IMG/VR virus record: IMGVR_UViG_3300036900_000151
Span: 1 to 39,486 of that record
Strand: one strand, 5' to 3'
DNA length: 39,486 bases
Origin: a virus
Below are positions 10,201-35,990 of this stretch, piece by piece. Position numbers and translations under genes: made by a program. A model generated the notes under the pieces. It worked only from the letters and a program-made list of their open reading frames with translations. It was not told the DNA's origin and searched no databases. Position 1 is the first letter of the stretch, and every line of letters begins with the position of its first letter.

Positions 10201-12785
10201 GTCGTGCTACGGCTGGTCGGGCGCTCAATGCGCTGAAGATCCGTATGGACGAGGCGCTCGCCAGTTCGATCACCGCAGCCAACACGCGCAAGGCAGCGCA
10301 GCGAGTCGTGGCTCAGGCCAAGCGTGCCGCGGCTCGAGCGGATGAGCTGCTGCCGAAGGCGACCGAGCTCGAGCGAGAGAAGGCAAGAGCGACCGCGGCA
10401 GCGTCCCGTCCGGAGCGTCCAGGCGCGCCGCGAACGCCGCGCAGCATCATCGATCAGATCGCGCAGGCCTACGACGAGCTGGACCGCTACAACGCACTGT
10501 CGCTGCATGAGAAGGCGACCGTGTTCGACCGTCTGCAGGAGCAGCGCGCGGCGAACCAGGCCAAGCGTCGGGCGGCGGTTCGCGGCGCGCCGGAAGAGCT
10601 GCTGTCGGCGCTGCAGGCTGAGCTGCGGTGGGAGCAGAACAACTTCGCCAAGCGCAAGAACACCTGGGAAACGATGGCGTTCATGGACTCCAAAGCGGGA
10701 GAGAACGCAGCGCGAGAGCGGGCCGCGTTCCGCGGCGGGCTGTACATCGAGCAGCAGCGGCGAGTGGCGCGGCTCGCAGCGGACAAGGCACAGAAGGACG
10801 CGACCGCGGCGTTCGACGCCGAAGCGCGCCGACGTGGTCAGCAGTCGGCCAAGGCGCAGCGCCTCCTCGAGGGCATGGGCGGCGTCGAGGTCAACAAGAA
10901 GCTGCTCGGCGAGTTCGTCGCGGCCATCAACGATCCCGACCCGATGGTTGCCGCCAAGTTCCTGCAGGGCACGTCGAATATGTCCTGGTGGAAGCGGGCG
11001 GGCGTCATCCGCATCGCTGGTCTGCTGAGCTCGCCGATCACGCACATGGTCAACATGGGCGGCAACGTCAGCGGCGCGATCGTGGAGGTGCCGACCAGGG
11101 CGCTCGTGGTTGGAATCGATGCGTTGCGCGCGGCGGCGACCGGTGGCGAGCGGCAGGCGTACGCCGGCGAGTTGTGGCCGATGATGAAGGCGTATGGTCC
11201 TGGCTTTCTGGGTGCGCTGCCCGAGGCGGTCCGCACGCTCAAGACCGGCATCACCAGCGAACAAGCTGCCGACCTGAGCAGGATCCACGGTCGCTTCTCG
11301 CCGAACGAAGGCGTCAACCTGGCGGTCGAGGCGCCGCTGCGCGCGCTGCAGGCGGAAGACGTGCTGTTCCGCCAGGGTGCCTACTCGGCACACTCGATGC
11401 GCGTCGCCACGCGGCAGGCGATCCGCGAGGGCTACCAGGGTGCGCAGGTGCAGGGGCGGGCGGCGACCATCCTGAAGAACCTGCAGGACTATCCCGAGCT
11501 GGCGCAGGAGGCCGCGGACGCTGCCGCACGGCAGGTTTTTCAGGAGCGGCGTACGGTGCCTGGTCTGTCGCGCGTGCCTGAGCCAAACGAAGCAGCGCAG
11601 TTCGCCTACCAGCAGGTCCTGCCGTTCGTGCGGACGCCAGCCAACATCACCGCCCAGGGCGCAGGCATGAGCCCGCTCGGTCTACTCGGCGTGGCCCAGG
11701 CGGCGGGCAAGGCGCGTGGTCTGCCAACCGGCTCCGCTTCGGAGCGTGCGGTCAGAGGTCGCGAGGTGCTGCTCGCCGAAGAGCGGCTGGCGCGCACCGT
11801 GATCGGTACCGGCATCCTGGGCGCCGGCATCGCGCTGGGTAGCGCGGGCATGCTCACCGCGGCGTACCCGACCGATCCGACCGAAGCCTCCACGTTGCCG
11901 CAGGGCTGGCGTCCGTGGTCGATGCGGCTGCACGATCCGGTGACCGATAACACGTACTACGTGCCACTCCAGAACATGGGGCCGCCCGGCTTCGCTATGG
12001 CTATGGCCGCGATCCTGACCGATCCTAAACACCGCAACAAGACCGTCCTGGACCCGTCCGAGCAGGTCAACGCGGCGACAGCGATTGGGCGCTACGTCAT
12101 CGACAACACCTTCCTGCAAGGCGTCTCGGACATGGTCGACGCGCTGCACGATCCGAAGACCGGCGCCAGCAAGTTCGCCGAGCCGCTCGCGGCGAGCTAC
12201 GGGCCGTACTCGAGTCTTGCCAGGGAGGCGCAGCGGATGATGGGCGTCGCCTCCAGGAACCCGCACGACGGGCTGGTCGGGCTGATCGAGGCGTTCGAGG
12301 CCAACTATCCAGGGCTCTCGGGCAACGTGCCTGAGGCGACCACGCCACTCGGCGAACCGCGGACGCAGGGCGCGACGGGTATCGGTCGCTACATTCCTGC
12401 GCGCTACGACATCGAGCGCGACGAGCCGACGTTGCAGGCGCTACGCTCCGCGGGCGTGGGCATCCCGCCGGCTCCGAAGGCGATCAACGTCGGGAACGGC
12501 TGGTCGATCCAGCTCTCGGAGGCCGAGCAGGACCAACTCAAGCGGGCCCGTGGCGTGCTGATCCGCGACCAGGTCGCGTCGGTGCTGGCGTCGCCGCGCT
12601 ATCAGCGAGCGGTCGCCAGCGGCGATATCAGCTTTCAGAATCAGCTCATGGCGCAGGCGGTCAGCAACGCGGCGCAGAATAGCAACGTCGACTTTGAGCG
12701 CACGATGACCAAGGCGCAGCTTCAGGCTCGAGCAGAACGGAAGGCAGCGCCCGAGCCGTACATCCTGGGGAGCGCAGCAGACTGA
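4251..12785 (+). CDS. Giant internal/ejected virion protein with transglycosylase-like and C39-like peptidase domains
   Basis: At 2,844 residues this gene takes up more than a fifth of the genome. After an Ala/Gln-rich start, residues ~190-340 look like a lysozyme/glucosaminidase-type domain (VAKNESAYG, candidate catalytic E234). Residues ~370-510 look like a C39-type cysteine peptidase (C386 in YAACGPAAAV, H471 in GGHYFFADAF). A helical Gly/Ala linker and a conserved-looking block (~940-1230) follow, then long charged coiled-coil regions (~1900-2200). The C-terminal third has hydrophobic segments (~2253-2290 and ~2514-2540). Multi-domain proteins of this kind lie between portal and capsid in several podovirus-like groups and are ejected into the cell envelope with the DNA; that role is inferred here. 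ATG 4251 is 4 bp after the previous stop. A second ORF is nested at 8566-8811. Confidence 0.85.
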   Translation: MPGTLLASDWQSSVEDELHRHVTDAINAATQAAQNAAGAIPQIQAPQISVPTVNPQAVLDELNQHVQNIVQTATQVAQPAVVQLGQVQNELQNHVATVLGGAAQGPFTPLNQPQPQQPTSALGQPTITTLGGGSTDATAPLGAPAAAGGDVLGAPSADTTASTTAVQTPQSLGAAGRIPANYNVPIDKGPTISRAQAEAVVKGTPLEGIGGQIWDLGVKYNVDPAFALSVAKNESAYGDPNVAPSQNRTNNIWDISNALYGGTPVPGTRWGQYPDKITGAEAFYKLITQEYYPKGQTSVGSVMWGPDGSQTHAYAPLSENSADYPQRLIDTMGNYRQLPGGTGGQPSTAPTAPVTTAQARAADLGYRDISQFGDQQLTPAEAYAACGPAAAVRFAERFGRQPTLREATDLAASVGWTAQSGMAGISSEQSLMNKLGIKTKLIEGPQWDVFAREAQTGNPVTISTYGKNGGHYFFADAFNPDTGAFHVGQSGKDLIGGSEWMTPAQMQNLMGSAQGALFADQPVTPVPSTAVAGGPAPTLGATTGTAAAPINVPGPQAKPPIVMGQNQPVTQIGGDQQQGLTPIQTAGDAVAGVVGDIKRAGQQAVATLGGELQNQVGGTASQLGTGVQSGISQVQSTVGGAADQLGTAVQQNVVQPAQAVAAAVAPNLGGDDAELARRRAALDQPGSPTLGGVGGELATGQPGEQTPGSVVGGLLGATGGTVQSPAEIRRNVEEVSQGLQANNPIRDVVVAGGLSNMVIDQVVQNPLLFVPGAPMGASLTRVGEQIVGDVAPNVAPVLGRLGAAALNGGVQNAIYEMGRADATPQSVGEAFATGAGLGAGLDIAPTAILGIGKAVLKRVPDIADAVGPAVGQFIRSEQGATRIPGQGPQQDVLHGMAVPRTGYEPGTPEHTTETFLQDQARAQNTPNPQLSAADIGGLPGMAGSRMRGLQEVRDAVDAGLPAARWYQEMVQQVRKDTGEDINPREAAVLMGAFGGNAGVAPNYHAMLSVFDAMRQARPDLTGFENMTEPQIQATQAFKDVAALVHGDKSYADDSMLARVMRGYRTGEIPVPSGAKLSSYTQDFLHALNEQYVPYSTQDVWQGRLFGARPDVQGGNGLPNVSQSDAAYRTMHALTNWVARERNLPPEQAQAAGWTVFRTLWTDPVIGPELRNDRVSLSDAIRQGQQAGLLDPRTMAAGGLAEVTAPRTAVPTSWASKINDVRERIQNNGSYNAPPPETATAVNEMALYHPSIQSAAQQRSILDPSGFQYGTVAGPKVGVRRPVGTEPAATLRDLALGDQPVLRVRGELQVDPTTGKIPWLLPEHAVQQTAGHAYVTVAGVGDDAAHLIGQRLGADRFNHADPTSTNTGGLAIELGSRADQARISDALNAAGLPVLREQGGTGIRVPLLEGRPAALARSLQQVLSDEGVAGTIGYYTGDTHAVESPGSSRVGRARDQASPSEPLGVPPGDRLSVSLFRDAREAAYGAPGFVAPGGRQRGELGQLPFGINVGGAVAGGYAGNLATPQEAPPEERLRNIGLGATAGLLGTRAITAALERNRLAPEVARAATEGFRAPEVGARPGENLLRAATEEPTNVPGVTRRTETVGGEAPVNIPEAQAGARTLSDVRSNPHLLAEARPGEAPMTDDELMAHYDQLDTQRQQVEDRLAAIDEQLRNPTQKPERPPWGAGWTNDQLVTLAKRQGLSAYEPLWWEKAGLLSGSGEVREDVGQSGLARGMGRGGAEPTPTELRAERAQLVREQTNIQEAGDQLANATPGQRFVRREQATTADLPFAQAEGPLGAGGGRDEGARTAQEIVTNKGRLTSDEAQLTGEAGGVTGRGIVNPTEAVPEAPSADTVRRMPNMDALLGRDMPEVAAQIQKSAEDNPALWDAYRQGTITFDSLKNDLAARVGMSKEDWLKTKVGQAFNERELVALQAAMVESQNRQTALAREVIARGGVDALTPEELAYSLSSLVDAQRLAAVARGGRATAGRALNALKIRMDEALASSITAANTRKAAQRVVAQAKRAAARADELLPKATELEREKARATAAASRPERPGAPRTPRSIIDQIAQAYDELDRYNALSLHEKATVFDRLQEQRAANQAKRRAAVRGAPEELLSALQAELRWEQNNFAKRKNTWETMAFMDSKAGENAARERAAFRGGLYIEQQRRVARLAADKAQKDATAAFDAEARRRGQQSAKAQRLLEGMGGVEVNKKLLGEFVAAINDPDPMVAAKFLQGTSNMSWWKRAGVIRIAGLLSSPITHMVNMGGNVSGAIVEVPTRALVVGIDALRAAATGGERQAYAGELWPMMKAYGPGFLGALPEAVRTLKTGITSEQAADLSRIHGRFSPNEGVNLAVEAPLRALQAEDVLFRQGAYSAHSMRVATRQAIREGYQGAQVQGRAATILKNLQDYPELAQEAADAAARQVFQERRTVPGLSRVPEPNEAAQFAYQQVLPFVRTPANITAQGAGMSPLGLLGVAQAAGKARGLPTGSASERAVRGREVLLAEERLARTVIGTGILGAGIALGSAGMLTAAYPTDPTEASTLPQGWRPWSMRLHDPVTDNTYYVPLQNMGPPGFAMAMAAILTDPKHRNKTVLDPSEQVNAATAIGRYVIDNTFLQGVSDMVDALHDPKTGASKFAEPLAASYGPYSSLAREAQRMMGVASRNPHDGLVGLIEAFEANYPGLSGNVPEATTPLGEPRTQGATGIGRYIPARYDIERDEPTLQALRSAGVGIPPAPKAINVGNGWSIQLSEAEQDQLKRARGVLIRDQVASVLASPRYQRAVASGDISFQNQLMAQAVSNAAQNSNVDFERTMTKAQLQARAERKAAPEPYILGSAAD
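8566..8811 (+). CDS. Candidate overprinted gene nested out of frame in the giant virion gene
   Basis: An 81-residue ORF in another frame of the same strand. It has an ATG, a well-placed GGAG (8554-8557, 8 bp spacer) and a TACAAT hexamer at 8537-8542. The N-terminal half reads like a normal protein (MPLNPQDQAELDALGIKPVP...), while the second half is Ser/Pro/Ala-rich. The host frame also reads naturally through here (SLFRDAREAAYGAPGFV), so both frames may be used. The string DALG-x-x-PVP recurs in the zinc-binding protein at 34004. Function unknown; it could still be a chance ORF. Confidence 0.4.
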   Translation: MPLNPQDQAELDALGIKPVPANHWVYRQGTAFLSPSSGTPAKPRTEPQDSLPPEGDNVASSGNSPSASTSAAPSPADTQAT

Positions 12786-14833
12786 TGCCCTACAACACCA
12801 AAGCCGACGCCGTTTCCGCGCTTCTGCCGGGCTACCGCGTCGTCGGCGAAGCGCCGTACATCGTCAAGGTCGCCAATCCCGACGCAGGCAAGGCGGGCGA
12901 GCCGGCGCAGATTGACCAGACCCAGGGCATCATCCTGTCGGTCCAGGGACCAGGCGGTGAGCCGGACGAAGTCGTCGTCAAAGAGGTCGGCAACAACCCG
13001 AACACCAAGGGCGGCGTCGGCTACGACGTCATCAAGGGCCCGACCAAGGCACCGACCAAGGCGGCGACGCCCGCGCAGGGGCTTGAGCGACTTGACGCCA
13101 ACCTGCAGCCGATCACCGATCCGAACAAGCCAGCGGTCTACGTTCGCGACCCGAAAGCGCCGCCAGGCACGGCACCGTTCAAGGTTGAAGAAGCGGCAAA
13201 GCTCGGCGACCCGAATACCTGGACGCCGATCTACCGCACTCCAGGTGATCCGACGTCGGGCATCGTCGGCCAGTACGACCCCAAGACGCAGACGGTCGCG
13301 GCGTCGGTCAGCGCGGCGCCGAACGCCAAACCATCGGGCGTCTTCACCAATGTCATCGATCCGAATGATCCGGCCAAGAAGCGCGTCATCGGCCTGGTCG
13401 ATACGGGCGATCAGTCGCTACATCCAGTCGCAACACAGGCTGACGGCAAGCAGGTCATCACGACGGCGACGGGCATCTACTCGTACGACAAGGACACGGA
13501 CAAGGTCTCCCTGCTGACGACGATCGACCCGCACTCGCCGATCCAGATCGTCACCTATCCCGACGGCTCGATCTACTCGTTCAACCCGAACGAGCCTGAT
13601 CCGACCAAGCAGCTCAGCAAGCTGCAGGGGCAGAAGCCGCCGCAAACGATCACGTCGAACGGCACGACCTACACGCTGAAGGCGGACGGCAGCGGGTACG
13701 AGCTGCCGCCGGGCGTGAGCCGACCGACGACGGTCGACAACACGACGACGCTCAAGCGCATCGTCATCCGCGACGACCAGGGCAACGTCCTGTCGGACAC
13801 GCCGAATGTCAACTATGTCGCGCCCGCTGCGACCGTCCCCGCAGCAAACACGACCGCGCCGTACATCCAGGTCCAGGACCCGAACGACCCGAGCAAGCTG
13901 ATCTGGGTCGAGAACAAGGGGCGGGTCACTGCCAGTCAGGCGTTGAAGGATCTGGCTTCGCACCTCTCGGGCCAGGTCGTTTCGGGCGATATCACCGTTG
14001 ACGAGGCCAAGTCGATCATCGACGCGTCCAACGCGAAGATGACCAACGACATCAACGCCCTGAACGCGGCGCGTGGTGCCGCTGGTGATGTCCTGACCAA
14101 CGCGCAGGCCAACGCGACGACCGGTGCGAGCCTGCTCAACCAGAGGGTTTCGTCGGCGACCGGCGCGCTCAACAGCCTGATCAGCTCAGCAGCTGGCAGC
14201 AAGATGACCAGCATCCCCGCGGGCGTCGGCCAGGGGCTGGTGCAGGGGCTGACCGACTGGACGGCGCAGCTCGGCGGCGGTCAGGGCGTGTACGACGCCG
14301 CGGCGCGCATGGTGCAGGCGTCGGACCCGAAGATCAGCGGCGACCCGACGCTGGCGCAGCAAGCGCAGCAGGCGCTGGCGCAGATGTTCACCCAGTGGCA
14401 GCAGCAGACCGGCGCCCCGCATCCGCTGGTGGCGGCGACGGAGGCGGCGAAGGCATCGCAGGCGTCGAACGGGCTGGTCGCGCCGAACACCACAGGGCAG
14501 ACGACTGCTAGCGTGCAGGCCCAGCTCGCCGCGCAACAGGCAGCGGCGGCACAAGCTGCGGGTACCGCCGGTCAGCTCAGTACGGCGGCGCTGAATGCTC
14601 GAGGACTGATGGACAACCCGCAGGGGCGGGCGGTTGCTGCTGGTCAGGTGCCGGTTGCCGCGGGCGGAGCGCCGACGACGCCCGGTCTGTACAACCCCGC
14701 GTATCAGCAAGCGTTCGTGAGTCCGATCGGACTGCCGGCCACCGGTTACGTGGTCGGGGGCAGCCAGGTTCCGACCCTGCCCATTCCTGGTTACTCGCCA
14801 TATGGCCCGTTCCAGGCGCCGGTGACCGTCTGA
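12785..14833 (+). CDS. Large hypothetical virion/internal protein (682 aa)
   Basis: Its ATG overlaps the stop of the giant gene by one base (TGATG), so the two are probably translationally coupled. The first ~390 residues are rich in Asp, Pro, Thr and Val with beta-strand repeats containing DPNDP (ENKP, VIDPNDPAKK, VQDPNDPSKL), suggesting small repeated beta modules. From ~395 on it is Ala/Gln-rich and helical (SQALKDLASHLSGQVVSGDI...), and the C-terminus is Gly/Pro-rich. Such composition and position fit an internal or ejection protein partner of the giant protein. No catalytic motif is recognised. Confidence 0.8.
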   Translation: MPYNTKADAVSALLPGYRVVGEAPYIVKVANPDAGKAGEPAQIDQTQGIILSVQGPGGEPDEVVVKEVGNNPNTKGGVGYDVIKGPTKAPTKAATPAQGLERLDANLQPITDPNKPAVYVRDPKAPPGTAPFKVEEAAKLGDPNTWTPIYRTPGDPTSGIVGQYDPKTQTVAASVSAAPNAKPSGVFTNVIDPNDPAKKRVIGLVDTGDQSLHPVATQADGKQVITTATGIYSYDKDTDKVSLLTTIDPHSPIQIVTYPDGSIYSFNPNEPDPTKQLSKLQGQKPPQTITSNGTTYTLKADGSGYELPPGVSRPTTVDNTTTLKRIVIRDDQGNVLSDTPNVNYVAPAATVPAANTTAPYIQVQDPNDPSKLIWVENKGRVTASQALKDLASHLSGQVVSGDITVDEAKSIIDASNAKMTNDINALNAARGAAGDVLTNAQANATTGASLLNQRVSSATGALNSLISSAAGSKMTSIPAGVGQGLVQGLTDWTAQLGGGQGVYDAAARMVQASDPKISGDPTLAQQAQQALAQMFTQWQQQTGAPHPLVAATEAAKASQASNGLVAPNTTGQTTASVQAQLAAQQAAAAQAAGTAGQLSTAALNARGLMDNPQGRAVAAGQVPVAAGGAPTTPGLYNPAYQQAFVSPIGLPATGYVVGGSQVPTLPIPGYSPYGPFQAPVTV

Positions 14834-16296
14834 TGGCACTCGCGTATAACCCGCAGGGCAGCACCGCGGCGCTCAATCAAGCGGGCTATCTGGACACGCC
14901 CGAAGGCCGCGCAGCGTATCCAGGTACGACGTACCCGACTTCAGGAGGTTCCAACGTGGCTGATACGGCCGGTGGTCCGCTCGGCGATTCGATCCAGAAG
15001 CTGCTCAGCGCGATGGCCTCCGGCAACGCCGCGTCGGCACAGGAGGCCATCCGTCAGTTCAACCTGACGTACACCAACCAGGTCGGCGAGCTGTACGGCC
15101 AGAATTTCGGTGTCGGTCAGCCTGCGCCACCAGGCGTGCCGACGCTGCCCGCGGGCCAGGCCGTTGGCAGCATCGGCTACATCCCAGGCTTCACCGGCAC
15201 CGCGGCGTCGCAGACACAGTCGGAGCTGGCGCAGCAGGCCAGTACGGCGCAGGGTGCCGCCGGTCTGACCGGCTTCTACACGGCACCGAGCCAGTCGCAG
15301 TACACGCCGGGCACGTTCGTTCGGCTCGATCCCAGCACCTATGACACGAACACCTACGGACCCGTCCAGATCAGCTACGTGCTGCCGACCGGTCAACTGC
15401 AGCGCGTCAACATCCCGCAGGCCCAGGCGATGGGCTGGAACGGCAACCTGTCGACGATGAACGTGCTGCCGGCGCAAACCGCGATGGCGCTCGAGCAGGC
15501 GCCGCCGTCGCAGTTGCCGATGCAGACGATGGCCGGGCTCACCAACTACTCAAACTTGAACACCGCGGCGATCAACCAGGCGATTGCTCAGGCAGGCGTG
15601 ACGGGCATGTACTCGGCGCCGGCGGCGATCGTGGCGCCGGGCACCAATGCCGCAGGCGGCAAGTTCTCGGATCTGGATCAGGGCACGCAGCGCGCGTACT
15701 TCGTCTCGAACGGCGGCGACTGGAACGCGGCCATGAACAAGTGGGTCGCCGATTCGAACAACGCCATCCGCCAGGCGACCGAAGCCGCGGGCGGGACGTG
15801 GACTCCCAATCAGCCCGGCGCCCCGCAGGCAACGCTGCAGGCGCAGCAGCAGACGTATGCGCAGCAGATGGGACTGATCAACCAGGCGGCATCGCTGCAA
15901 GCGAATCCTTTCAGGCAGCAGCAGGCGATCGGTCAGATGGGGAGTCTCCTGGCCGGTGGCGGCGTGGCGTCGTTCTCGGCGCCGAACACGGTCGCCGGTG
16001 TGGGGACTGCCGGCGGTAACACCCAGGGCGGCATGGGCTACCTGCAGCAGATGATCGACGACATCCGCAACCCGACGCCGAATCAGACGTCGATGAACCA
16101 GGTGTTGAACGCTATTCCGACGCCGAACAAGGTCAACTCGACCGAGTTCCTGCGGGCGGCGCCGAGCACCCAGAACATGGTGTTGCAGGGGATGCAGGAG
16201 AAGTACGGCATTGACCCCAACGACGCGATGACGCAGATCAAGGCGACCCTCCCGCAGTTCCAGGCGCCCACCACCGTGGGCGCGGTCAGGAGGTAG
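14833..16296 (+). CDS. Hypothetical Ala/Gln-rich virion protein (487 aa)
   Basis: Joined to the preceding gene by another TGATG overlap, making a three-gene coupled block. It is rich in Ala, Gln, Gly and Thr, with helical stretches such as SAQEAIRQFNLTYTNQVGEL and a C-terminal helical region (EFLRAAPSTQNMVLQGMQEK). The composition resembles the C-terminal half of the previous protein, so both may be internal core or ejection proteins. No recognised domain. Confidence 0.78.
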   Translation: MALAYNPQGSTAALNQAGYLDTPEGRAAYPGTTYPTSGGSNVADTAGGPLGDSIQKLLSAMASGNAASAQEAIRQFNLTYTNQVGELYGQNFGVGQPAPPGVPTLPAGQAVGSIGYIPGFTGTAASQTQSELAQQASTAQGAAGLTGFYTAPSQSQYTPGTFVRLDPSTYDTNTYGPVQISYVLPTGQLQRVNIPQAQAMGWNGNLSTMNVLPAQTAMALEQAPPSQLPMQTMAGLTNYSNLNTAAINQAIAQAGVTGMYSAPAAIVAPGTNAAGGKFSDLDQGTQRAYFVSNGGDWNAAMNKWVADSNNAIRQATEAAGGTWTPNQPGAPQATLQAQQQTYAQQMGLINQAASLQANPFRQQQAIGQMGSLLAGGGVASFSAPNTVAGVGTAGGNTQGGMGYLQQMIDDIRNPTPNQTSMNQVLNAIPTPNKVNSTEFLRAAPSTQNMVLQGMQEKYGIDPNDAMTQIKATLPQFQAPTTVGAVRR

Positions 16297-20145: not shown

Positions 20146-21852
20146 ATGACCGAATCCCTGCCATCCCTGGTGCCGGTCAGCAATCCCGCGCTGCCGCCGG
20201 CGCCACCTCTGGCGCCGCTGTCACCGGTTCCGCCGCTGGTCGAGAGCACGCCGCCATCGTGGCAGGGACCAATGGGTCCACCGGGGCCTGAAGGTCCAAT
20301 GGGCCCACAGGGGCCGCAAGGACCACAGGGCGCTGCTGGCGCAGATTCGACCGTGCCCGGTCCACCTGGAGCCGACGGTGCGCCTGGTCCACCAGGTGCT
20401 GATTCGACCGTGCCCGGTCCGCCTGGGGCGACTGGTCCGCAGGGCCCCGCGGGGCCGCAGGGCGCCGACTCGACGGTGCCTGGCCCGGCAGGGCCGGCAG
20501 GTGCGACGGGACCGCAAGGTCCGAAGGGCGATACGGGTGCGACGGGTAGCCAGGGCCCGCAAGGCGCGACTGGTCCCGCGGGCAGCACCGGCCCGCAGGG
20601 GCCGACCGGCGCCACGGGGTCGCAGGGCCCACCAGGCCAGGGCGTGCCTGTCGGCGGTACCGCTAACCAAGTCCTCGCCAAGATCGACTCGACGAACTAC
20701 AACACGCGCTGGATCGACGCGACCGCGATGGCGCTCGGCGGCGACCTGAACGGCACGATTGCCAACGGGCATGTCAACCTCCTGACGATCTCCGGCGGAG
20801 CATGGAATGTTGCTGGTGACGTGCACGCCGCTGATCTTTACGCCGTTCGCAGTGCGACCAGCGGTGTGGTGTACCTGGGTAGCGACAAGGTGCATTACCT
20901 GTACTTCGACAGCGCGAATAGTCGCTATCAGTTGCCCGGCGCGAGCGCGGTGTTGCAGGTTGACAGCGGCACGATCAGCTTCGTTGATTCGACCCACCAG
21001 ATCACCAACTCGGGCGGCAACTTTATCTACCTGGCCGGCTCGGGGCAGCACTATTTCTGGGGTACCGGCTCGCCGCAGACGTGGGCAACAGTCAACACGG
21101 GACCGCTCCTTGTCAACGGCACGATGCAAGCGAGCGGTTTAGCAACCTTCAATAGCGGTCTGAATGCTGCTCAGGTCAACTCAACGGGCGGCAATCCAAT
21201 CACCCTCGCACGCGACGCGCGGCTATGGTGGGGTGACGCGAATACGAGCATTCTCGGCTCCAGTGCCGACGCGAATATCTATATCGACACGTGGACAACC
21301 CTCTTCGTGCGGGCCCAGGGTTACACCCAGAAAGTCCTGTTCAAAGTCTCGGGACCGGGCGGCGATGCGACGGTCGGCGGCCTGCTCGCCGTTCCGGCTG
21401 GCGGCGTGAGTAGCGGCGGCAATTACACCGCGCAGGGTGTAGGCAGTAGCGGCTACGCCTTCCAGACTGCCAATGCGGCAGCAGCGTACGGCCAGGGCTA
21501 CGCCAACGCCTGGATTGCCGCCTCCAGCATTGACTTCAAGAAGAACATCCGACCGCTGCGCGACCCGCTCGCCATCGTGATGAATGACCGTCTGCACGGC
21601 ATCGAGTACGACCACGACTGGGAGCTCCCCGCTGGCGCTCAAGCCAACAAGATCAAGTCGGCTGGCCGCGCGCACTCCATCGGCTTCGTGGCTGACTACT
21701 GGCTACCGCATGTGCCGGAGGTGGTTAGCACCGACGAGTACGGCAAGGCGATGGGCATGGACTACGGGCGTGTCGCTGCCATCGTCTTTCAGGCGCTCAA
21801 GGAATACATCGCCAAAACCGATGCTCGTCTGGCTGCACTGGAGGCCCCATGA
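20146..21852 (+). CDS. Collagen-like tail fibre with S74-type C-terminal chaperone domain
   Basis: A 568-residue fibre. Residues ~1-38 are a Pro-rich leader. Residues ~40-163 are Gly-X-Y collagen repeats that should form a triple helix. Next comes a junction motif seen in many trimeric fibres ([20 protein letters not shown]), then beta-rich shaft modules. The C-terminal ~110 residues resemble an S74 intramolecular chaperone: S460 and K465/K466 in [12 protein letters not shown], a mid-region [16 protein letters not shown], and a terminal helix ([20 protein letters not shown]). In the family this domain assembles the trimer and then cuts itself off in front of the Ser using a Ser/Lys pair, and both residues are present here. 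It probably binds the host surface. Confidence 0.9.
20262..20640 (+). repeat. Collagen Gly-X-Y coding repeat
   Basis: About 41 Gly-X-Y triplets rich in GPQ, GPP and GAT. A nonapeptide GADSTVPGP occurs three times (near residues 66, 84 and 105) and interrupts the triplet rhythm, suggesting growth by internal duplication. Length can be expected to vary between relatives through slippage or recombination. Confidence 0.9.
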
Positions 21853-22297: not shown

Positions 22298-23309
22298 GTA
22301 CCGCCGCGCGCTGGCGGTCGAGAGCGGCCCGTACGTCGGGCCGGAGAGCTACGACGTGCGCGCCACGTCGGGCACGACGGCTAGCGAGCTGGTGTGTTCG
22401 AACTACCCGATCATGAGCAGCATCGGCCAGAGCGATCTGTACGTCGAGCGACCGCTGTACCGCCCCAACGCGACGTGGGAGCAGGATCACAACCGCTACG
22501 TACTGAGCTACGACCCGCCCACCGGCACGCTGACCCCGGATCTGCCGTGGACGAATTCGATGCTGGTCGGTGTCAACTCGCCGACGACGTACGGCCAGCT
22601 CGAGGCCAACACGTACGGCGACTTCGAGAAGCAGCTGCTGACCTACGAGAACATGGAAGGCACGGGCATCAACGGCATCGGCGAGCGGTTCGAGATTCTC
22701 GGGCCGTGGGACGCGCCGATCATGCACCAGCTCATCAACGACGGGCTGAAGCAGTGCTGGATGGTCGTCGACGTGGTCTGCACCGCGGTGGTGGGCGTCA
22801 CGCGGCACGATCTGCGGAACGTGACGCCGTGGTTGCAGGACGCCAATCACATCCGCCAGGTCGGCATGCTGCCGACGGGTCAAGATCCGTCGACCAGCGA
22901 TCCATTCACGAATGTCGTCTATGGCGAGGTCGAACGGGATGGCGGCACGTTCGTGCTGAACACCGGCGCGCGCTCCTTCAACGAGGGCGACATCATCTAC
23001 CTGCGCTGCTACAAGCGCGCGTACGACCACTGCCGTATGGCCGGCGGCGTCTTCGGCGAGCAGAGTGGTCTCCACGGTGAGACCGACGAGGCGCCAATCG
23101 AACGTGACTGGCTGGCGAGCGCGGCGCTGACCGTCGGCTGGCGACGCTTCGGACACATGCTCGAGGCGGCCGCGAACCAGCGACTGATCCGCGACCAGGC
23201 GACCGCCAACGCGTGGTTTGCCGACCGCTCACGGCAGCACTTCACCGCGGTCGCGCCGACCCTGACCTTCCGACGTCTGCGCCGCTTTGGGCCCGCAGTC
23301 CGTTCATGA
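22281..23309 (+). CDS. Probable tail adaptor/structural protein (342 aa)
   Basis: The start is GTG 22281, inside the end of the previous gene. It is a mixed alpha/beta protein (MPSLAEYRRALAVESGPYVG; later NMEGTGINGIGERFEILGPW) with a basic helical C-terminus that repeats aromatic/Arg patterns (VGWRRFGHMLEAAANQRLI). Directly upstream of the propeller-like tail protein, it occupies the place where short-tailed phages encode the adaptor that joins portal to nozzle. That role is inferred from order only. Confidence 0.68.
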   Translation: MPSLAEYRRALAVESGPYVGPESYDVRATSGTTASELVCSNYPIMSSIGQSDLYVERPLYRPNATWEQDHNRYVLSYDPPTGTLTPDLPWTNSMLVGVNSPTTYGQLEANTYGDFEKQLLTYENMEGTGINGIGERFEILGPWDAPIMHQLINDGLKQCWMVVDVVCTAVVGVTRHDLRNVTPWLQDANHIRQVGMLPTGQDPSTSDPFTNVVYGEVERDGGTFVLNTGARSFNEGDIIYLRCYKRAYDHCRMAGGVFGEQSGLHGETDEAPIERDWLASAALTVGWRRFGHMLEAAANQRLIRDQATANAWFADRSRQHFTAVAPTLTFRRLRRFGPAVRS

Positions 23310-25249
23310 GCATCCTGTCGGCGCGGCGAAGCCCCTTCCCCTATCACTTCAAGATCGGAACTACGGGACTGCTGCTCGGTATCCCCAAGCCCGGCGCTCC
23401 GCTGCTGACCAGTTCGAAGACGCAGGACATCAGCCAGGTCGCGCCGCCCGACTTCAGCTACGGCGGCACGTCGCCGACCAGCGACCGCGAAGAGCCGTAC
23501 GAGTCGCTGGTGCTGGGTATGGGCCTGCGGACGCAGGAAAAATGGCAGGACTTCCGCTACCTGTCGGCGCAGGGCGTCGACCTGAGCGTGTGGCCGTGGT
23601 GCAAGGGGCCCGAGATCACGCTGCTAACGCCCGCATCGCACGATGCCGCGGCGGGCGTGCGGACCTTCTTCGAGCTCGGCGGGGTGCTGTACTGCGCCCA
23701 GGGGCGCTACGTGCTCAAGCGCACGGACGACGCGACCTGGTCGGTGGCCGCGGACTTCGGCGCGGGCGTGGCGATTCTGAACGTCGAGACCTTCACCAGC
23801 AACTTCGACGGCGTGCCGCGCGCGTTCTTCGCGCTCTCGAGCGGCGTCGCGCAGTGGACCAGCGACGGCGTCACTTTTCACGCGATGGCGACGTTTCATG
23901 CGCTGGCGTTCGCGGCGATCGGGCGGGAGTTCTGGTGGGCCGACGATGTCAACCAGCTCCGCAAGTGCGACACGAACGCGGACCCGACCAACGAGGCCAA
24001 CTACACCAGCCTGATCTTCCGCGCTGGCGACAAGCAGGCAGTCATCACCAGTCTGATGGTCTCTGCAGCGGGCACGCTGATCATCGCCAAGACCGACGGC
24101 CTGTACACCCTGGACGCACAAGGCGACGATCACCAGCTCTTCCCCTTCCTGCAGTTCGGGCCCGACGTCAACAACGGCAAAGCCTGGGGCCAGTTCGAGA
24201 ACGACCTGTACACCGCCTACGGCACGAACCTCTACCGCATCGATCCGAACCTCACCATCCAGGAGGTCGGGCCCGAGAAGCTGGTCAACAACGACTCGCC
24301 CGTGCGCGGCAAGGTGACCGCGTTTACGGGTGTCGGCTCGATGTTCGGGTGGGGCGCGGTCTTCAATCCGGACACGTTGACGGGCTACCTGATGAAGTTC
24401 GGCGGCTGGGTGACGCAGCAGTCGCTGATTGCCACGCCGGCGGTGCCGAACGCCTCCAGCTTCGACGCGGTGCACGTCGACGCCTGGCACGGCTCGCTGA
24501 GCGTGCCCTTCGCCAATCGGGCGATTCAGTCGCTGTTCGTCTCGAAGATTGGCGCGCCGGCGGGGCACACGCGCACATACCTGGGCTTCTCGGACGGCAC
24601 GGTTGGCTGGCTGATTAACTCCTGCGTCCCGAATCCCGCGGCGTGCAGCGCGTACCGCTTCACGGTCGGCGACGCGTGGGTCGACCTGCCGCTGTGGCAT
24701 GGTGGCTACCACGCGTCTCGCAAGAGCCTGCGGCACGGCTCGATCACCGGTGTGCTGGATAGCCAGAACTACGTCACCATCGAGTACAAGCTCGATCCGT
24801 CGGCGAGCTCCTGGACGCAGCTGGGCGGGATCTTCAACAGCGCGGTGTACGAGCAGATGCGCTTTCCGATCACGACGGCGACCGTGCTGGCGGCGTTCCG
24901 CATCCACCTGCAGAACAACGCCAACACGAAGTCGCCGCTGGTGAACGCCTTCAGCATCGGCCACGCGCTGCGTCCGCAGCGTTTCATGACCGTCCAGGTC
25001 GAGATCCTGTGCGCCGATGGGCTAGTGCGGCGCGACGGCGTGCCGCTGCGGATCGGACGACGAGAGATTCAGCGGGTGGTCGAGGCGGCGGTCGACGAGC
25101 CCGGTGCGGTGACCTGCACGCTGCCGGACGAGAGTGTTCAGGATCTGAGCTTCATCGACTACGCCGTATCGCAGTCGTTTGACGAGGTCGGGCGCCAGTG
25201 GCGAGGCTCCCTGTCGATCAAGGCGGTCCAGTGGATCGGCTCACCGTAG
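23306..25249 (+). CDS. Beta-propeller-like tail structural protein (tail nozzle candidate, 647 aa)
   Basis: ATG 23306 overlaps the upstream stop (ATGA). The sequence is almost all beta, with recurring short strand-turn units in which aromatic residues alternate with Gly/Asp: VLYCAQGRYVLKRTDDATWS, FFALSSGVAQWTSDGVTFHA, LIIAKTDGLYTLDAQGDDHQ, FENDLYTAYGTNLYRIDPNL. This blade-like repetition is characteristic of propeller proteins, and tail nozzle proteins of short-tailed phages have such folds. The C-terminal ~150 residues form a separate beta domain. Nozzle function is inferred from fold impression and gene order. Confidence 0.75.
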   Translation: MSILSARRSPFPYHFKIGTTGLLLGIPKPGAPLLTSSKTQDISQVAPPDFSYGGTSPTSDREEPYESLVLGMGLRTQEKWQDFRYLSAQGVDLSVWPWCKGPEITLLTPASHDAAAGVRTFFELGGVLYCAQGRYVLKRTDDATWSVAADFGAGVAILNVETFTSNFDGVPRAFFALSSGVAQWTSDGVTFHAMATFHALAFAAIGREFWWADDVNQLRKCDTNADPTNEANYTSLIFRAGDKQAVITSLMVSAAGTLIIAKTDGLYTLDAQGDDHQLFPFLQFGPDVNNGKAWGQFENDLYTAYGTNLYRIDPNLTIQEVGPEKLVNNDSPVRGKVTAFTGVGSMFGWGAVFNPDTLTGYLMKFGGWVTQQSLIATPAVPNASSFDAVHVDAWHGSLSVPFANRAIQSLFVSKIGAPAGHTRTYLGFSDGTVGWLINSCVPNPAACSAYRFTVGDAWVDLPLWHGGYHASRKSLRHGSITGVLDSQNYVTIEYKLDPSASSWTQLGGIFNSAVYEQMRFPITTATVLAAFRIHLQNNANTKSPLVNAFSIGHALRPQRFMTVQVEILCADGLVRRDGVPLRIGRREIQRVVEAAVDEPGAVTCTLPDESVQDLSFIDYAVSQSFDEVGRQWRGSLSIKAVQWIGSP

Positions 25250-25261
25250 GAAAGGACGCGC

Positions 25262-26296
25262 ATGGCACGTATCGAAACTGATCCGAACTACACGGCGCCG
25301 ACGTTTTCGCGTGCGACCGCGGCGACCGACCTGTTCAAGAAGGAAGACATCCAGCAGCTGGCCGCGGCGTTCTCGGGCCACGTGCACGACGGAAACGGCA
25401 AAGGGCTGGCCGTGCCGCTGCCGCCAGCAGGCTCGATCACTGGTGGCATGATTGCTGATGGCTCAATCGGCACGGCTGATCTGGCCGACGGTGCCGTGAC
25501 GAATGCGAAGCTGGGGCCCAATTCGGTCCTGTCGGCCAACATCGCCGACGGCACGATCACCGGTGCCGATATCGCGGCTGGCACGATCACCGGCACGAAC
25601 ATCGCCGATGGCACCATTACGGGCGCCGACATCGCCGCGGGCACCATCACCAGCGCCCACATTGCCGACGGCACGATCGTGACTGCGGACATCGCTGACA
25701 ACCAGATCACGTCGGCCAAGATCACCGACGGCAGCATCGCGACGGTGGACCTGGCTGACGGCTTGATCACCGCGGCCAAGCTGTCGAGTGCCGACACGTT
25801 CGCGATGGCCGGCTTGCACGTCACCGGCACGGCGACGCTGGATGCTTCGGTCAACATGCCGAGCGGATGTGTCATCGCTAACGGCACGGGCGGCCAGGTG
25901 TCGATCGGCACCACGCCGTTTTCGTCGTACCGCCTGACACTGGCGAACCTTGCCAGCCCCGCGGGACAGGGCATCGCTCAGAGTTGGGTGACGTACGCCT
26001 GCGTCGACCACGCGCTCGCGGCGAGCCTCAATGTGGCGCCGATCGACGATCCGCTCGGGAAGGTGCGCGCCATCCCGGCGTACTACTACCCGCATATGGC
26101 GATCGACGCGGACGGTAACCCGGTCGAGCCGCTCGAGACGGCGCAAACCTATGGCTTCAGCGCCACTGAGGTCGCCGCGGTTATCCCCGAGCTCGCTGAC
26201 GCCAGCAACAGCACGGTCGATTACGGACGTCTGATGACCGTGCTGTGGGCTGCGTGTCAGCAACTCGACGCGCGGTTGAGCGCGCTGGAGGCCTGA
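25262..26296 (+). CDS. Second tail fibre: decapeptide-repeat shaft with degenerate S74-like C-terminus
   Basis: A 344-residue fibre preceded by GGAAAGGA (25248-25255). Residues 64-173 are eleven consecutive ten-residue repeats of the type IADGTITGAD, expected to form a beta-helical or spike shaft. The C-terminal ~100 residues resemble the chaperone end of the collagen fibre (P-I-D-D-P-L-x-K-V, then YGFSATEVAAVIPELADASN, then TVLWAACQQLDARLSALEA). The residues at the expected self-cleavage site read ACVDHALAASLNV, with no Ser/Lys pair in place, so it may assemble without cleaving. The N-terminal ~60 residues probably attach it to the tail. Confidence 0.83.
   Translation: MARIETDPNYTAPTFSRATAATDLFKKEDIQQLAAAFSGHVHDGNGKGLAVPLPPAGSITGGMIADGSIGTADLADGAVTNAKLGPNSVLSANIADGTITGADIAAGTITGTNIADGTITGADIAAGTITSAHIADGTIVTADIADNQITSAKITDGSIATVDLADGLITAAKLSSADTFAMAGLHVTGTATLDASVNMPSGCVIANGTGGQVSIGTTPFSSYRLTLANLASPAGQGIAQSWVTYACVDHALAASLNVAPIDDPLGKVRAIPAYYYPHMAIDADGNPVEPLETAQTYGFSATEVAAVIPELADASNSTVDYGRLMTVLWAACQQLDARLSALEA
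25451..25780 (+). repeat. Eleven tandem 30-bp (decapeptide) repeats in a fibre gene
   Basis: Exactly 330 bp encode eleven decapeptides of the form (I/L)-A-(D/A)-G-(T/S)-(I/L)-(T/V)-x-A-(D/N/K/H). Repeats 4 and 6 are identical at the protein level, and several share long DNA identity. Copy number is likely to vary in relatives. Confidence 0.9.
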
Positions 26297-29763: not shown

Positions 29764-31482
29764 ATGAGTGTAATCGGTGTCCTGATCCGCAATTCAACCG
29801 CTAAGCAGGTCGGCAACTACCGCTCAGAAGCGCAGTACGACCTGGGCCCGCGCATCGAACAGCGCGGCCACACGATCCGCTACTACGACGAGCAGGGCAC
29901 CTCAGGGTCTGATCTGACCAAGCGCAAGGTCGCCATGCAGATGCTCGATGACATGAAGGCAGGCGTCATCCAGGGCATCGCCGCGTTCGACTTCAAGCGC
30001 CTCACACGCGACGAGTTCGGCGTCGACGGCGGCACGATCGCGCGGCGCATCGTCGAGGCACACGGGCAGTTCCATACATGGGACCGCGAGTACAACCTGC
30101 GCCTCGACGACGATCTGATGCAGTTTCAGTTCCAGTGCTTCATCGCGGGGCTCGACTGGCGCAACATCCGCAACACGCTCTGGAGCGGGACATTCAAGAA
30201 GCTCGAGCGGGAGCCGCACTACATGAAGACGCCACTCGGCTACGTGAATGTGGCTGACGACCGTGACAAGAAGCACGTCGCCAAGAACCCGGAGCACCAG
30301 CACGTCATCGACGCGCTCGCGAGGCTCTTCGACGAGTGCGACTCATTGGCCGAGATCTGCCGACGTCTCAACACTGAGGGACCCGCGCGGCCGGCGTTCC
30401 GCGGTCGCGGTGGCGAGAGTACGCGTTGGATGGTGTACGGATTGCGCTACATCCTGCGCAATACGATCTATACGGGCACCTTCAGGTTTGGCGTCCACAC
30501 CAGGCAGCGTTCAACGGTCTGGGACAAGTTCGCGCTGGATGCCAGCGGCGCGCCGCGTGACTTTGAGCAGTTCCGTCCTGATCTGGCCTATTGGGACCCA
30601 GCCCGCGTCCGTCGCTGGCGGCGCAAGTTCGACAAGCCCGCGAACACGCGCACGATGAAAAGCGGCAACAAGCAAGCGTTGCCCGGCGTGCTCGAGTGCG
30701 AGACGTGCGGCTCGCGTATGATCGGCTTCGGCGCCGGCACCTACGCGTGCTCGGCCAAGGGCGTCGGCCGCGGGACTGACGGCCGGCCCTGCACGGCGCC
30801 CCAGAAGATTCGTGAGTTCGTGGCGCTGCGGCTGCTGCGCGAGGAGTTGCCGAACGTGCTAGCGGACGCGCAGGGACTCGCGGAGCGCGCCCGTGCCAAC
30901 CTCCTGGAGCATGCGGCACCCTCGGCCGCGAAGCAGCGACTGGCGTTCCTTGAGGAGCGCGTCGCTTACATCAGCCAGCAGATGCTCGAGCGCGCCGAGC
31001 TGCAGCAGGCGACCGCGCTGCTGGATCGCATCACCCAGGCGCAGCTGGAGATCGCCACGCTGAAGGAGCAGGTCGTCGACGAGGAGGACGCTCGGCTCAA
31101 CGACGAGGAGGTCGCGGCCGTGTGCGACCTGCTCCTGAGCAACCCGATCGCCCTGATTGACGGCATGTCGCCGGAGCGCCAGGGCCGCGTCTACACCATG
31201 CTGTTTGCGAACGTGCGTATCGAGACGCGTGGGTTCGGTGGCGGGCGTCAGTGGCGGCTGCGGTCCTACACCGCGCGCCTGGTCGACGAGCCGCGGGTCA
31301 CGCCAGAGGCACCGTGGGCGCGCTGCCCGCACCCGAGAACCACCTATCCGGACGGCGAGCGGCCGGTGCTGATCTTCGGCGAGCGTGCGCCAGGAAGGGG
31401 TGCAAGCGACATATCAGCACGCGGATATGTGGACTACCTACCTTCATTGGTTGAGCTAGCTGGCGCGCTCTCTTTGGGTTGA
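29764..31482 (+). CDS. int: Large serine recombinase (phage integrase)
   Basis: A 572-residue site-specific recombinase for integration and excision. The resolvase-type catalytic domain starts with GVLIRNSTAKQ: S11 is the nucleophile and R9 a catalytic Arg. R79 and R82 in FKRLTRDEF match the second Arg cluster. A recombinase domain follows (~residues 150-290, including RYILRNTIYTGTFRFG). The zinc ribbon uses C312-x2-C315, C329 and C343. The coiled coil is at ~395-450 (AKQRLAFLEERVAYISQQML). Domain order and length are typical of large serine integrases. It marks the phage as temperate; the attP site is expected next to this gene but not identified. Its last 49 bp are overlapped by a minus-strand ORF. 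Confidence 0.95.
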   Translation: MSVIGVLIRNSTAKQVGNYRSEAQYDLGPRIEQRGHTIRYYDEQGTSGSDLTKRKVAMQMLDDMKAGVIQGIAAFDFKRLTRDEFGVDGGTIARRIVEAHGQFHTWDREYNLRLDDDLMQFQFQCFIAGLDWRNIRNTLWSGTFKKLEREPHYMKTPLGYVNVADDRDKKHVAKNPEHQHVIDALARLFDECDSLAEICRRLNTEGPARPAFRGRGGESTRWMVYGLRYILRNTIYTGTFRFGVHTRQRSTVWDKFALDASGAPRDFEQFRPDLAYWDPARVRRWRRKFDKPANTRTMKSGNKQALPGVLECETCGSRMIGFGAGTYACSAKGVGRGTDGRPCTAPQKIREFVALRLLREELPNVLADAQGLAERARANLLEHAAPSAAKQRLAFLEERVAYISQQMLERAELQQATALLDRITQAQLEIATLKEQVVDEEDARLNDEEVAAVCDLLLSNPIALIDGMSPERQGRVYTMLFANVRIETRGFGGGRQWRLRSYTARLVDEPRVTPEAPWARCPHPRTTYPDGERPVLIFGERAPGRGASDISARGYVDYLPSLVELAGALSLG

Positions 31483-34436: not shown

Positions 34437-34515
34437 CGACGCCGTGCGGGTGGTCATCACCGTGGGCACCTTCGCGGTGCTGCTGGTGTTGATCTTCACG
34501 AGGGCCGCCAGCTGA
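34429..34515 (+). CDS. Tiny single-span membrane peptide (28 aa)
   Basis: Starts 8 bp inside the previous gene and ends in a TGATG overlap with the next. A short acidic N-terminus precedes one hydrophobic helix (VRVVITVGTFAVLLVLIF) and a small tail (TRAAS). Stop/start coupling to the secreted lysozyme gene supports it being real. Function unknown. Confidence 0.5.
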   Translation: MTDDAVRVVITVGTFAVLLVLIFTRAAS

Positions 34516-34988
34516 TGGCGCGGGTACCGGCCTTCGTCGCGGGCCTGGTGTGCGGCCTGGTGCTCGGCACCGCGGTCATCATCGGCCACGCCGACGACGT
34601 GCAGGCCGAGGTCCTCGCGGCCGCCGCGGCGGCACACGTCGACCCGACCGACCTGGCCGGCGCGGTCTCGAGCACCGGCCTCGACCCGTGGATCTACTTG
34701 CGCGCCGTCGGCGAGCTGGACCCGCCCGCACCCAGCCCGCTGACGGCAGCCAGCCCGCGCGTCGCGTGCATCATTCGCGTCGAGTCTCGAGGCGATGCGC
34801 ACGCGGTGAATCCGCGGTCCGGCGCGGCGGGGTTGGGGCAATTCCTGTCCTCTACCTGGAAAACGACCCCCCAGGGCCGCGCCGGACTGTCGGTGTTCGA
34901 TCCGGTCGCCAATCGCGCCGCCATCGACTGGATGGTGGCCAACGGCCGTGCGGGCGAGTTCGACGCCGTGCGGTTCAGCGGGTGCTGA
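34515..34988 (+). CDS. Secreted resuscitation-factor-like transglycosylase (157 aa)
   Basis: The N-terminal hydrophobic segment (VPAFVAGLVCGLVLGTAVII) looks like a signal anchor. After an Ala-rich linker, residues ~82-155 form a lysozyme-like domain: ACIIRVESRGDAHAVNPRSG with candidate catalytic E90, GAAGLGQFLSSTWKTTPQGR, then VFDPVANRAAIDWMVANGRA. This resembles Rpf/transglycosylase-like domains that cut peptidoglycan glycan strands. It lies in the early operon rather than the lysis cassette. It could remodel the wall during infection or act in late lysis with the cysteine-peptidase-like protein. Confidence 0.8.
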   Translation: MARVPAFVAGLVCGLVLGTAVIIGHADDVQAEVLAAAAAAHVDPTDLAGAVSSTGLDPWIYLRAVGELDPPAPSPLTAASPRVACIIRVESRGDAHAVNPRSGAAGLGQFLSSTWKTTPQGRAGLSVFDPVANRAAIDWMVANGRAGEFDAVRFSGC

Positions 34989-35602
34989 TGCTGCATGGCA
35001 TGGCTCTTTGTGCCGGGGCTGGCGGACTCGAGCTCGGACTCAGGATCGCTCTCGGCGACGACTACCGCTGTGTGGTGTACGTCGAACGGGAAGCCTACGC
35101 AGCGGCAACTCTCGTGGCGCGGATGGCAGATGAGGCCCTGGATCCGGCACCTGTCTGGGACGACCTGGCCACCTTCGACGGCAAGCCTTGGCGTGGCGTC
35201 GTGGATCTCGTGTCTGCGGGGTTTTCGTGCCAGCCCTGGTCGATCGCCGGCAAGCGCCTCGGGCTCGGCGACGAGCGATGGATCTGGCCGGACATTGCTC
35301 GCGTCCTTTGCGAAGTTAGACCCGAGTGGGTCTTTTTGGAAAACGTCGGCGGGCTTGTTCGAGGGGGATTGGAGCAAGTTCTGCGCGACCTGGCCGCACA
35401 GGGGTTCGATGCGGAATGGGATTGCGTTTCGGCGGCCGAAGTTGGGGCGCCGCAGCTTCGCGAGCGGCTGTATATCCTCGCGCACCACCCTCTGGACGAC
35501 GCCGACGCTGGACGACAGTGGCGGACGGACCACGCAATACGCCCAGGGCGGGACTGCCTTGGGCGTACAGGCCAGGTACTGGCAGACGCCGACCAATGCT
35601 GA
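34988..35602 (+). CDS. C5-cytosine DNA methyltransferase, catalytic part (204 aa before frame break)
   Basis: Methylates cytosine C5 using SAM. Motifs in order: I (MALCAGAGGLELGL, SAM binding, residues 5-18), IV with catalytic Cys (SAGFSCQPWSIAGKRLG; Ser replaces the usual Pro before Cys), VI (FLENVGG) and VIII (GAPQLRERLYILAH). The frame then stops at 35602 before any complete target-recognition domain or motif X. Those parts continue in other frames downstream. ATG 34988 overlaps the lysozyme stop (TGATG). Likely roles are self-protection from host restriction or epigenetic marking. Activity depends on how the frame break is resolved. Confidence 0.82.
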   Translation: MLHGMALCAGAGGLELGLRIALGDDYRCVVYVEREAYAAATLVARMADEALDPAPVWDDLATFDGKPWRGVVDLVSAGFSCQPWSIAGKRLGLGDERWIWPDIARVLCEVRPEWVFLENVGGLVRGGLEQVLRDLAAQGFDAEWDCVSAAEVGAPQLRERLYILAHHPLDDADAGRQWRTDHAIRPGRDCLGRTGQVLADADQC

Positions 35603-35990
35603 CAGTTTGGGTGGACATCTCAGTCGCAGCGGCGACCGGTCTGACGAGCTTCTGTTGAAGGGGCAAGCACGGTATTGGGCAACGCCGAACACGCAAGACA
35701 TCAGTGGCTATCACCCACTCCAGACGAATGGCAGGACCGAGCAGGACCACGGGGCGAATCTGAAGGATCACGCCACTCACTGGGCTACTGGCCCCCAGAT
35801 CGAAGCTACCGCGGCGAATGGCCGAGTGAGCTTGAACCCGCGGTTCGTCGAGTGGCTGATGGGATGGCCCCCTGGGTGGACCGACTGCGGCTCACCGGTA
35901 ACGGAGTGGTGCCGCTGGCTGCGGCAGTCGCGTTCCTACGCTTACGAGATCGCCTGTGCACGGGAGGATATGAATGACTCGAGCTCTTGA
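35481..35990 (+). pseudogene. Methyltransferase target-recognition region continued in a shifted frame
   Basis: In the frame one base ahead of the catalytic part, ~170 codons stay open and read like the variable region of phage C5-methyltransferases: TTLWTTPTLDDSGGRTTQYA, the repeated phrase QARYWQTPTNAD / QARYWATPNTQD, then SLNPRFVEWLMGWPPGWTD, a common closing segment. No convincing start exists within it, so it is either the frameshifted middle of the same protein or a remnant. Its stop at 35990 lies 17 bp inside the next gene, unlike the neat overlaps elsewhere. Confidence 0.6.
35864..35977 (+). pseudogene. Methyltransferase motif X back in the original frame
   Basis: In the same frame as the catalytic part, this segment reads DRLRLTGNGVVPLAAAVAFL followed by RLRDRL, which matches the C-terminal motif X of C5-methyltransferases (GN-x-V-x-P...). 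Its stop (35975-35977) overlaps the next ATG as ATGA, the junction style used throughout this operon. That argues that the ancestral gene ended here and that the whole gene ran 34988-35977 with two frame changes. Confidence 0.6.

Follow-up and report, generated by a model that had tools for sequence, protein, structure and literature searches.

A phage cytosine-C5 DNA methyltransferase locus with its conserved parts distributed over two overlapping reading frames

Features of the locus

The window, that is, the whole 39,486-nucleotide stretch of the virus record IMGVR_UViG_3300036900_000151, contains a cytosine-C5 DNA methyltransferase locus with two same-strand reading frames, here called frame A and frame B, the latter at +1 relative to the former (Table 1). 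Frame A has the catalytic chain with motifs I-VIII and, at its far end, motif X, while frame B, which starts a few bases later, has the second chain with the target-recognition region (TRD) and motif IX. The frame A translation from its ATG reads MLHGMALCAGAGGLE...FSCQPWS...ENV...QLRERLYILAHH...DADQC and ends at the first in-frame TGA; after the second, frame A is open up to a final TGA at 35975-35977, and this stretch includes TGNGVVPLAAAVAF. Frame B is open from 34989 to 35987, and its text includes YWQTPTNADSLGGH... and LNPRFVEWLMGWPPGWTD. The motif IX DNA reads LNPRFVEWLMGWPPGW in frame B and ...RRVADGMAPWVDRL in frame A. Motif X lies in frame A but behind two stops, so it is not on the catalytic chain of the window, whereas in most relatives it is joined to that chain.

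Table 1. Coordinates of the features at the methyltransferase locus in the window
Feature	Position	Strand	Details and basis
Frame A N-terminal ORF, catalytic chain with motifs I-VIII	34988-35602	+	204 aa; PF00145, phrog_363, Moonbeam gp69 alignment
Frame B ORF, recognition chain with TRD and motif IX	34995-35990	+	331 aa; phrog_1008, Moonbeam alignment, openness in relatives
Adjacent starts (A ATG 34988, B ATG 34995)	34988-34997	+	sequence
Catalytic cysteine codon of motif IV, frame A	35228-35230	+	sequence, alignment
Target-recognition region (YWQTPT...), frame B	35580-35831	+	sequence, Moonbeam alignment
Motif IX, LNPRFVEWLMGWPPGW, frame B	35832-35879	+	sequence
First in-frame TGA of frame A	35600-35602	+	sequence; relatives normally open at this site
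Second in-frame TGA of frame A	35642-35644	+	sequence
Frame A C-terminal ORF with motif X	35675-35977	+	100 aa, possible TTG start; phrog_32758, Moonbeam alignment
Motif X (GNGVVP), frame A	35897-35914	+	sequence, Moonbeam alignment, relatives

An earlier note on this DNA had placed motifs I-VIII in the first frame up to about 35490 and target-recognition text in the +1 frame between about 35490 and 35870. Both frame assignments hold, but the limits do not, as frame A reaches 35602 and frame B is open across the whole gene. Its placement of motif X in the first frame, with the stop in an ATGA overlap with the next gene, was confirmed in the sequence, where the final TGA of frame A overlaps the ATG (35974) of a RecT-like gene. 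The upstream gene (34515-34988) encodes a short transglycosylase SLT-domain protein, and its stop overlaps the frame A start as TGATG. A reading of TGA as a sense codon was rejected because TGA terminates this transglycosylase gene and also frame B. The promoter scan found no promoter, and the record has no second C5-methyltransferase able to supply a catalytic chain. Elsewhere in the record, PHROG matches include tail-fibre-like proteins (20146-21852 and 25262-26296) and an integrase (29764-31482), and the long ORFs at 4251-12785, 12785-14833, 14833-16296 and 23213-25249, one of them of 2844 aa, had no PHROG match at E 0.001.

The N-terminal part of frame A matches PF00145 in Pfam (E 1.2e-30), with motifs I, IV (including the catalytic cysteine), VI (ENV) and VIII present, as well as phrog_363 (4.8e-48). 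Motif IX and the TRD of the C5-methyltransferase family (PF00145) are also present, but in frame B. The C-terminal ORF of frame A matches phrog_32758 (4.2e-7). By profile, frame B belongs to PHROG 1008 (E 4.5e-30, residues 83-298), the match starting at about 35241 within the catalytic region of A, and a further match to it, at 35241-35888, had an E value of 1.6e-32. PHROG 1008 is annotated as 'DNA methyltransferase', with no indication that it overlaps a catalytic gene in another frame. Neither Pfam nor NCBIfam has a match to frame B, which counts against a two-subunit reading, and a PDB profile search with the B family returned just weak matches, to the MS2 coat protein.

Residues C81 and Q82 are invariant in the frame A alignment. 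Motif IV (35222-35236) reads FSCQPWS, with a serine replacing the usual proline ahead of the catalytic cysteine; SCQ in place of PCQ is common to the closest relatives (L011, L012 and L013) and is counted against the reading of the locus as dual-coding for two subunits.

The single-frame C5-methyltransferases of actinophages, such as gp69 of Mycobacterium phage Moonbeam, are homologous to all three parts of the window locus; unlike it, they have one continuous frame, with stops in the shifted frame. Residues 5-159 of Moonbeam gp69 align with frame A (E 7e-27), residues 215-329 with frame B (E 2e-15; HLTRSGDRSHELLL against HLSRSGDRSDELLL) and residues 339-357 again with frame A, at motif X. As a protein of one frame matches A, B and A in turn, the parts of one enzyme are distributed A-B-A at this locus. 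This alternation of conserved parts, which the earlier note had read from the letters, was thus borne out by the profiles, by Moonbeam gp69 and by the comparative data below. We infer that the single-frame gene is the ancestral state and the two-frame layout derived; compensating indels around the specificity domain, also suggested earlier, would fit as the likely origin, given the A, B, A alignment of gp69.

Conservation of the layout and tests against chance

The layout was followed in 160 distinct loci in which motifs IV and IX could be recognised; these came from two IMG/VR scans (one with the A protein, one with B), named phages, and one scan of bacterial genomes with a B alignment. The latter matched 408 stretches, of which 80 were kept, most of these from Alphaproteobacteria. 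The A-protein scan was independent of B, the genome scan selected on the motif IX peptide, and none of the scans selected on open frames. Three actinophage loci (L003, L004 and L006) were excluded from the 160 and used as single-frame or split controls.

In 159 of the 160 loci, motif IX stands at +1 to motif IV, so the frame break noted in the window is conserved among its relatives, and both frames are stop-free from before motif IV through motif IX in 147 of the 160. The earlier remark that both frames look protein-like at once was also right. Over the same stretch, viral and phage loci have between 1 and 25 stops in the third frame, for example 18-19 at 51% GC (L007 and L131). In the genomic set, both frames are open in 76/79 loci and motif X is in frame A in 79/79, counts of little independence, since six loci remain after dereplication. 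L066 is the single exception: its motif IX stands at +2 to motif IV, for which an indel, a sequencing error or a different layout could be the cause.

According to the earlier note, its reading would be refuted by reads showing a 1-bp assembly error at either junction. More generally, a single-frame gene could have been misassembled or misread at one junction or at both. The contig is a metagenomic virus record, which leaves room for such an error; however, the same frame relation is found in isolated phages and in sequenced bacterial genomes, which contradicts an error as the source of the layout. Because many independent contigs have the identical layout, an assembly error does not explain it, and its probability is practically negligible.

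Frame B might also be a mere shadow, open and conserved only through its position opposite a conserved, GC-rich frame A. Because such a frame A could leave B open for free, the synonymous codons of A were shuffled in 40 dereplicated dual loci, which preserves both the A protein and its codon usage. In the catalytic part, one B stop was seen against 51.5 expected, and in the TRD part none against 54, for an overall count of one against about 105 in these diverged loci. The three controls had eight B stops in the catalytic part against 9.2 expected, consistent with the null. In the reciprocal test with B codons shuffled, the stretch between motifs VIII and IX had three A stops against 135 expected in the 40 loci, two of the three being in the window and one in L013. 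The nominal P values (1e-21 and smaller) exaggerate the independence of the loci, because these share ancestry.

For the window alone, the openness of B over the catalytic part is unremarkable: B stayed open there in 87% of the shuffle trials, and in other genes of the window (64% GC) shifted-frame open stretches reach 319 codons, so open-frame statistics from the window only are not decisive. For the family, the shadow explanation is contradicted by the missing B stops; in addition, the conserved text of the TRD part is that of B and not of A, and the A-B layout persists in loci of about 51-55% GC. A shadow therefore has a very small probability. The substitution pattern between the window and L012 is frame-specific: over the catalytic part, 42 of 74 changes fall at the third codon position of A and are A-synonymous in pattern, and over the TRD, 48 of 95 fall at the third position of B, with a B-synonymous pattern. 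With more than 140 related loci sharing the overlap, the gene is very likely a true double-coding one.

The N-terminal residues of B follow a conserved pattern, M(x)W[LIFC][YFHV]. In 119 of 146 loci, the B start is preceded at a distance of exactly 4 nt by a start of frame A (ATG, GTG or TTG). In the window, the spacing between the two ATGs is 7 nt and not 4, which counts against the two-subunit reading. The start region also bears on programmed frameshifting, which the earlier note had offered as one option and by which ribosomes would pass from A into the +1 frame B past motif VIII, possibly returning ahead of motif X, so that a single long enzyme results. The canonical motif order indeed requires A, B and A, and the first stop of frame A in the window has the context TGC TGA C; UGA followed by C is the known +1 shifting context in prfB. 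However, the part of B ahead of any such shift stays free of stops (the one against 51.5 over the catalytic region), B begins at a conserved start of its own, stops near the junction are absent from most relatives, and two opposite shifts would be required. Frameshifting is unsupported because a stop-free upstream B and a conserved B start would be needless under a shift after motif VIII; it is considered improbable, and the dual-coding reading does not need it.

The interrupted catalytic frame

The window has two stops in frame A where its relatives are open, and this is counted against the two-subunit reading. Stops of frame A confined to the interval between motifs VIII and IX are found in seven of the 160 loci, and all seven retain motif X in frame A. 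Two of these, L160 and L240, are 86% identical and have several of the stops of this interval in common (by eye, from translations). Between them, 43 of 72 changes in the N-terminal part of A are A-synonymous against a neutral expectation of 0.29, and in the TRD stretch 75 of 107 are B-synonymous (neutral 0.29); at motif X all four of the four changes are A-synonymous, which are too few for much weight. These frame-specific changes show that truncation of A past motif VIII has not ended selection on either chain.

The main competing explanation for the window is recent decay, in which a functional dual-coding ancestor had frame A inactivated by the two TGAs, with B persisting since the loss is young. 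In its favor, only the three A stops mentioned above were seen in the 40 diverged loci, two of them in the window, and most relatives have A open, including L011 and L012, which are intact; moreover, one of the window stops arose through a B-synonymous change (GCG to GCT, both Ala, in comparison with L012). Against decay, the seven loci are broken solely between motifs VIII and IX and always retain motif X in A, and L160 and L240 share such stops with the A-synonymous excess in the catalytic part and at motif X. As these two loci are broken yet under purifying selection, truncation of A need not mean decay. Decay of the catalytic chain is a serious possibility for the window, held at somewhat under even. 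The decayed gene proposed in the earlier note thus stands as far as the two stops of frame A are concerned, but not for B, which is intact, nor for the layout, which is that of 159 of the 160 loci.

In the window, the A chain would terminate past motif VIII and motif X would be on a separate A-frame ORF. The enzyme might then work in pieces, namely A residues 1-204, B and possibly a motif X peptide; alternatively, A was disabled not long ago. An enzyme in pieces is possible because L160 and L240, similarly broken, remain under selection. A lead for the restart of the motif X piece is the TTG at 35675, which has GAAGGGG upstream, and an ATG is found at the equivalent WATP site in L160 and L240. 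The clade formed by L145, L160 and L240 has a long recognition frame with repeated WPTP/WATP units, opposite which frame A is stop-rich; these repeats may represent multiple target-recognition units.

The intact A chain of L012 was modeled with AlphaFold2. Residues 1-167 form a confident catalytic domain (pLDDT mostly >90), with M.HaeIII and M.HhaI as its PDB matches, and residues 375-395 a confident motif X helix, and between them about 200 residues (174-374), where the TRD should be, have no confident structure. In this model, the stretch of A opposite the TRD of B looks like a linker, open but not confidently folded. Being stop-free without a confident predicted structure, the stretch of A between motifs VIII and X offers a clean test case for the sharing of constraint by overlapping genes. 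B modeled alone had a pLDDT of 54.9 and was poor except for the motif IX region and a C-terminal helix, a result that counts against the two-subunit reading; the confidence of the model is too low for interpretation.

A putative two-subunit methyltransferase and its known counterparts

Here it is proposed that the locus codes, in its two frames, for the two subunits of a cytosine-C5 DNA methyltransferase that would work like M.EcoHK31I; this reading is likely, and it explains the sequence data best. Ribosomes would initiate at either one of the two neighbouring start codons, and the A and B chains would then assemble; the A chain would bind AdoMet and bear the catalytic cysteine, and the B chain would contribute the DNA-recognition domain. 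The resulting enzyme may methylate the phage's own DNA and so counter host restriction. Assembly of the two chains is plausible because M.SssI and M.HhaI, if split at about the same place, give fragments that are inactive by themselves but can combine into a working enzyme. For the family, an A+B heterodimer is reasonably probable, and for the phage of the window, whether the methyltransferase would be active is judged to be evenly balanced.

The small chain of M.EcoHK31I is reportedly coded in an alternative frame within the gene of the large chain. M.EcoHK31I is a C5-methyltransferase of two polypeptides (YGGCCR; Lee, Kam and Shaw 1995, as cited in PMC3404938), and according to PMC3404938 its large chain has motifs I-VIII and X and its small chain only motif IX. 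The relatives of the window locus similarly carry I-VIII and X on A and motif IX on a separate chain B, a likeness by layout. Unlike in M.EcoHK31I, B overlaps essentially all of A and starts beside it, the A chain of the window is cut past motif VIII, and the canonical TRD text is in B, whereas the TRD of M.EcoHK31I was predicted on the large chain (PMC3404938). Neither the dual-coding gene family nor this precedent, in which motif IX sits on a second chain (PMC3404938), is in the earlier note.

Like M.AquI (CYCGRG, two subunits), the locus has a C5-methyltransferase divided into catalytic and recognition parts; in contrast, the small chain of M.AquI has both IX and X, and here X is in the catalytic frame. 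Closer to M.AquI are gp6/gp5 of Firecracker and 38/39 of Camerico, in which the +1 frame holds IX as well as X.

Long same-strand overlaps of two enzyme subunits are rare among well-supported cases. The overlap described here extends over almost all of the gene, and its conservation reaches across more than 140 loci. No report of dual-coding or overlapping phage methyltransferase genes was found in a literature search that covered few subscription journals. In its broadest form, the proposal is of a large family of near-fully overlapping same-strand gene pairs of phages and Alphaproteobacteria, about 1 kb long and with twin starts, in which both genes encode C5-methyltransferase subunits, the B subunit is absent from Pfam and NCBIfam, and some members, the window phage included, have a three-piece enzyme (catalytic chain, recognition chain and motif X peptide); taken as a whole, this is tentative and rather unlikely. 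The split parts catalysis from target recognition, which is also the aim of engineered split methyltransferases.

In the phage records examined, half of the enzyme is missing because annotation usually retains one frame, and if A is the frame retained, the recognition part would be absent from any specificity prediction based on that chain only. Only one of the two frames is annotated in L005 (1641-2774) and L007 (1691-2605), from Alfacinha1 and ABMM1, respectively. In Acidovorax phage Alfacinha1, the frame annotated as a cytosine methyltransferase is B, despite an open frame A that carries the catalytic motifs, and in Acinetobacter phage ABMM1, frame A is annotated and B omitted. The control loci L003 (1709-2879), L004 (1589-2534) and L006 (1833-2679), of Mycobacterium phages Jarcob and Firecracker and Gordonia phage Camerico, have motifs IX and X both at +1 to motif IV, and each is annotated as a pair of genes that overlap. 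This split or frameshifted layout is nearer to that of M.AquI.
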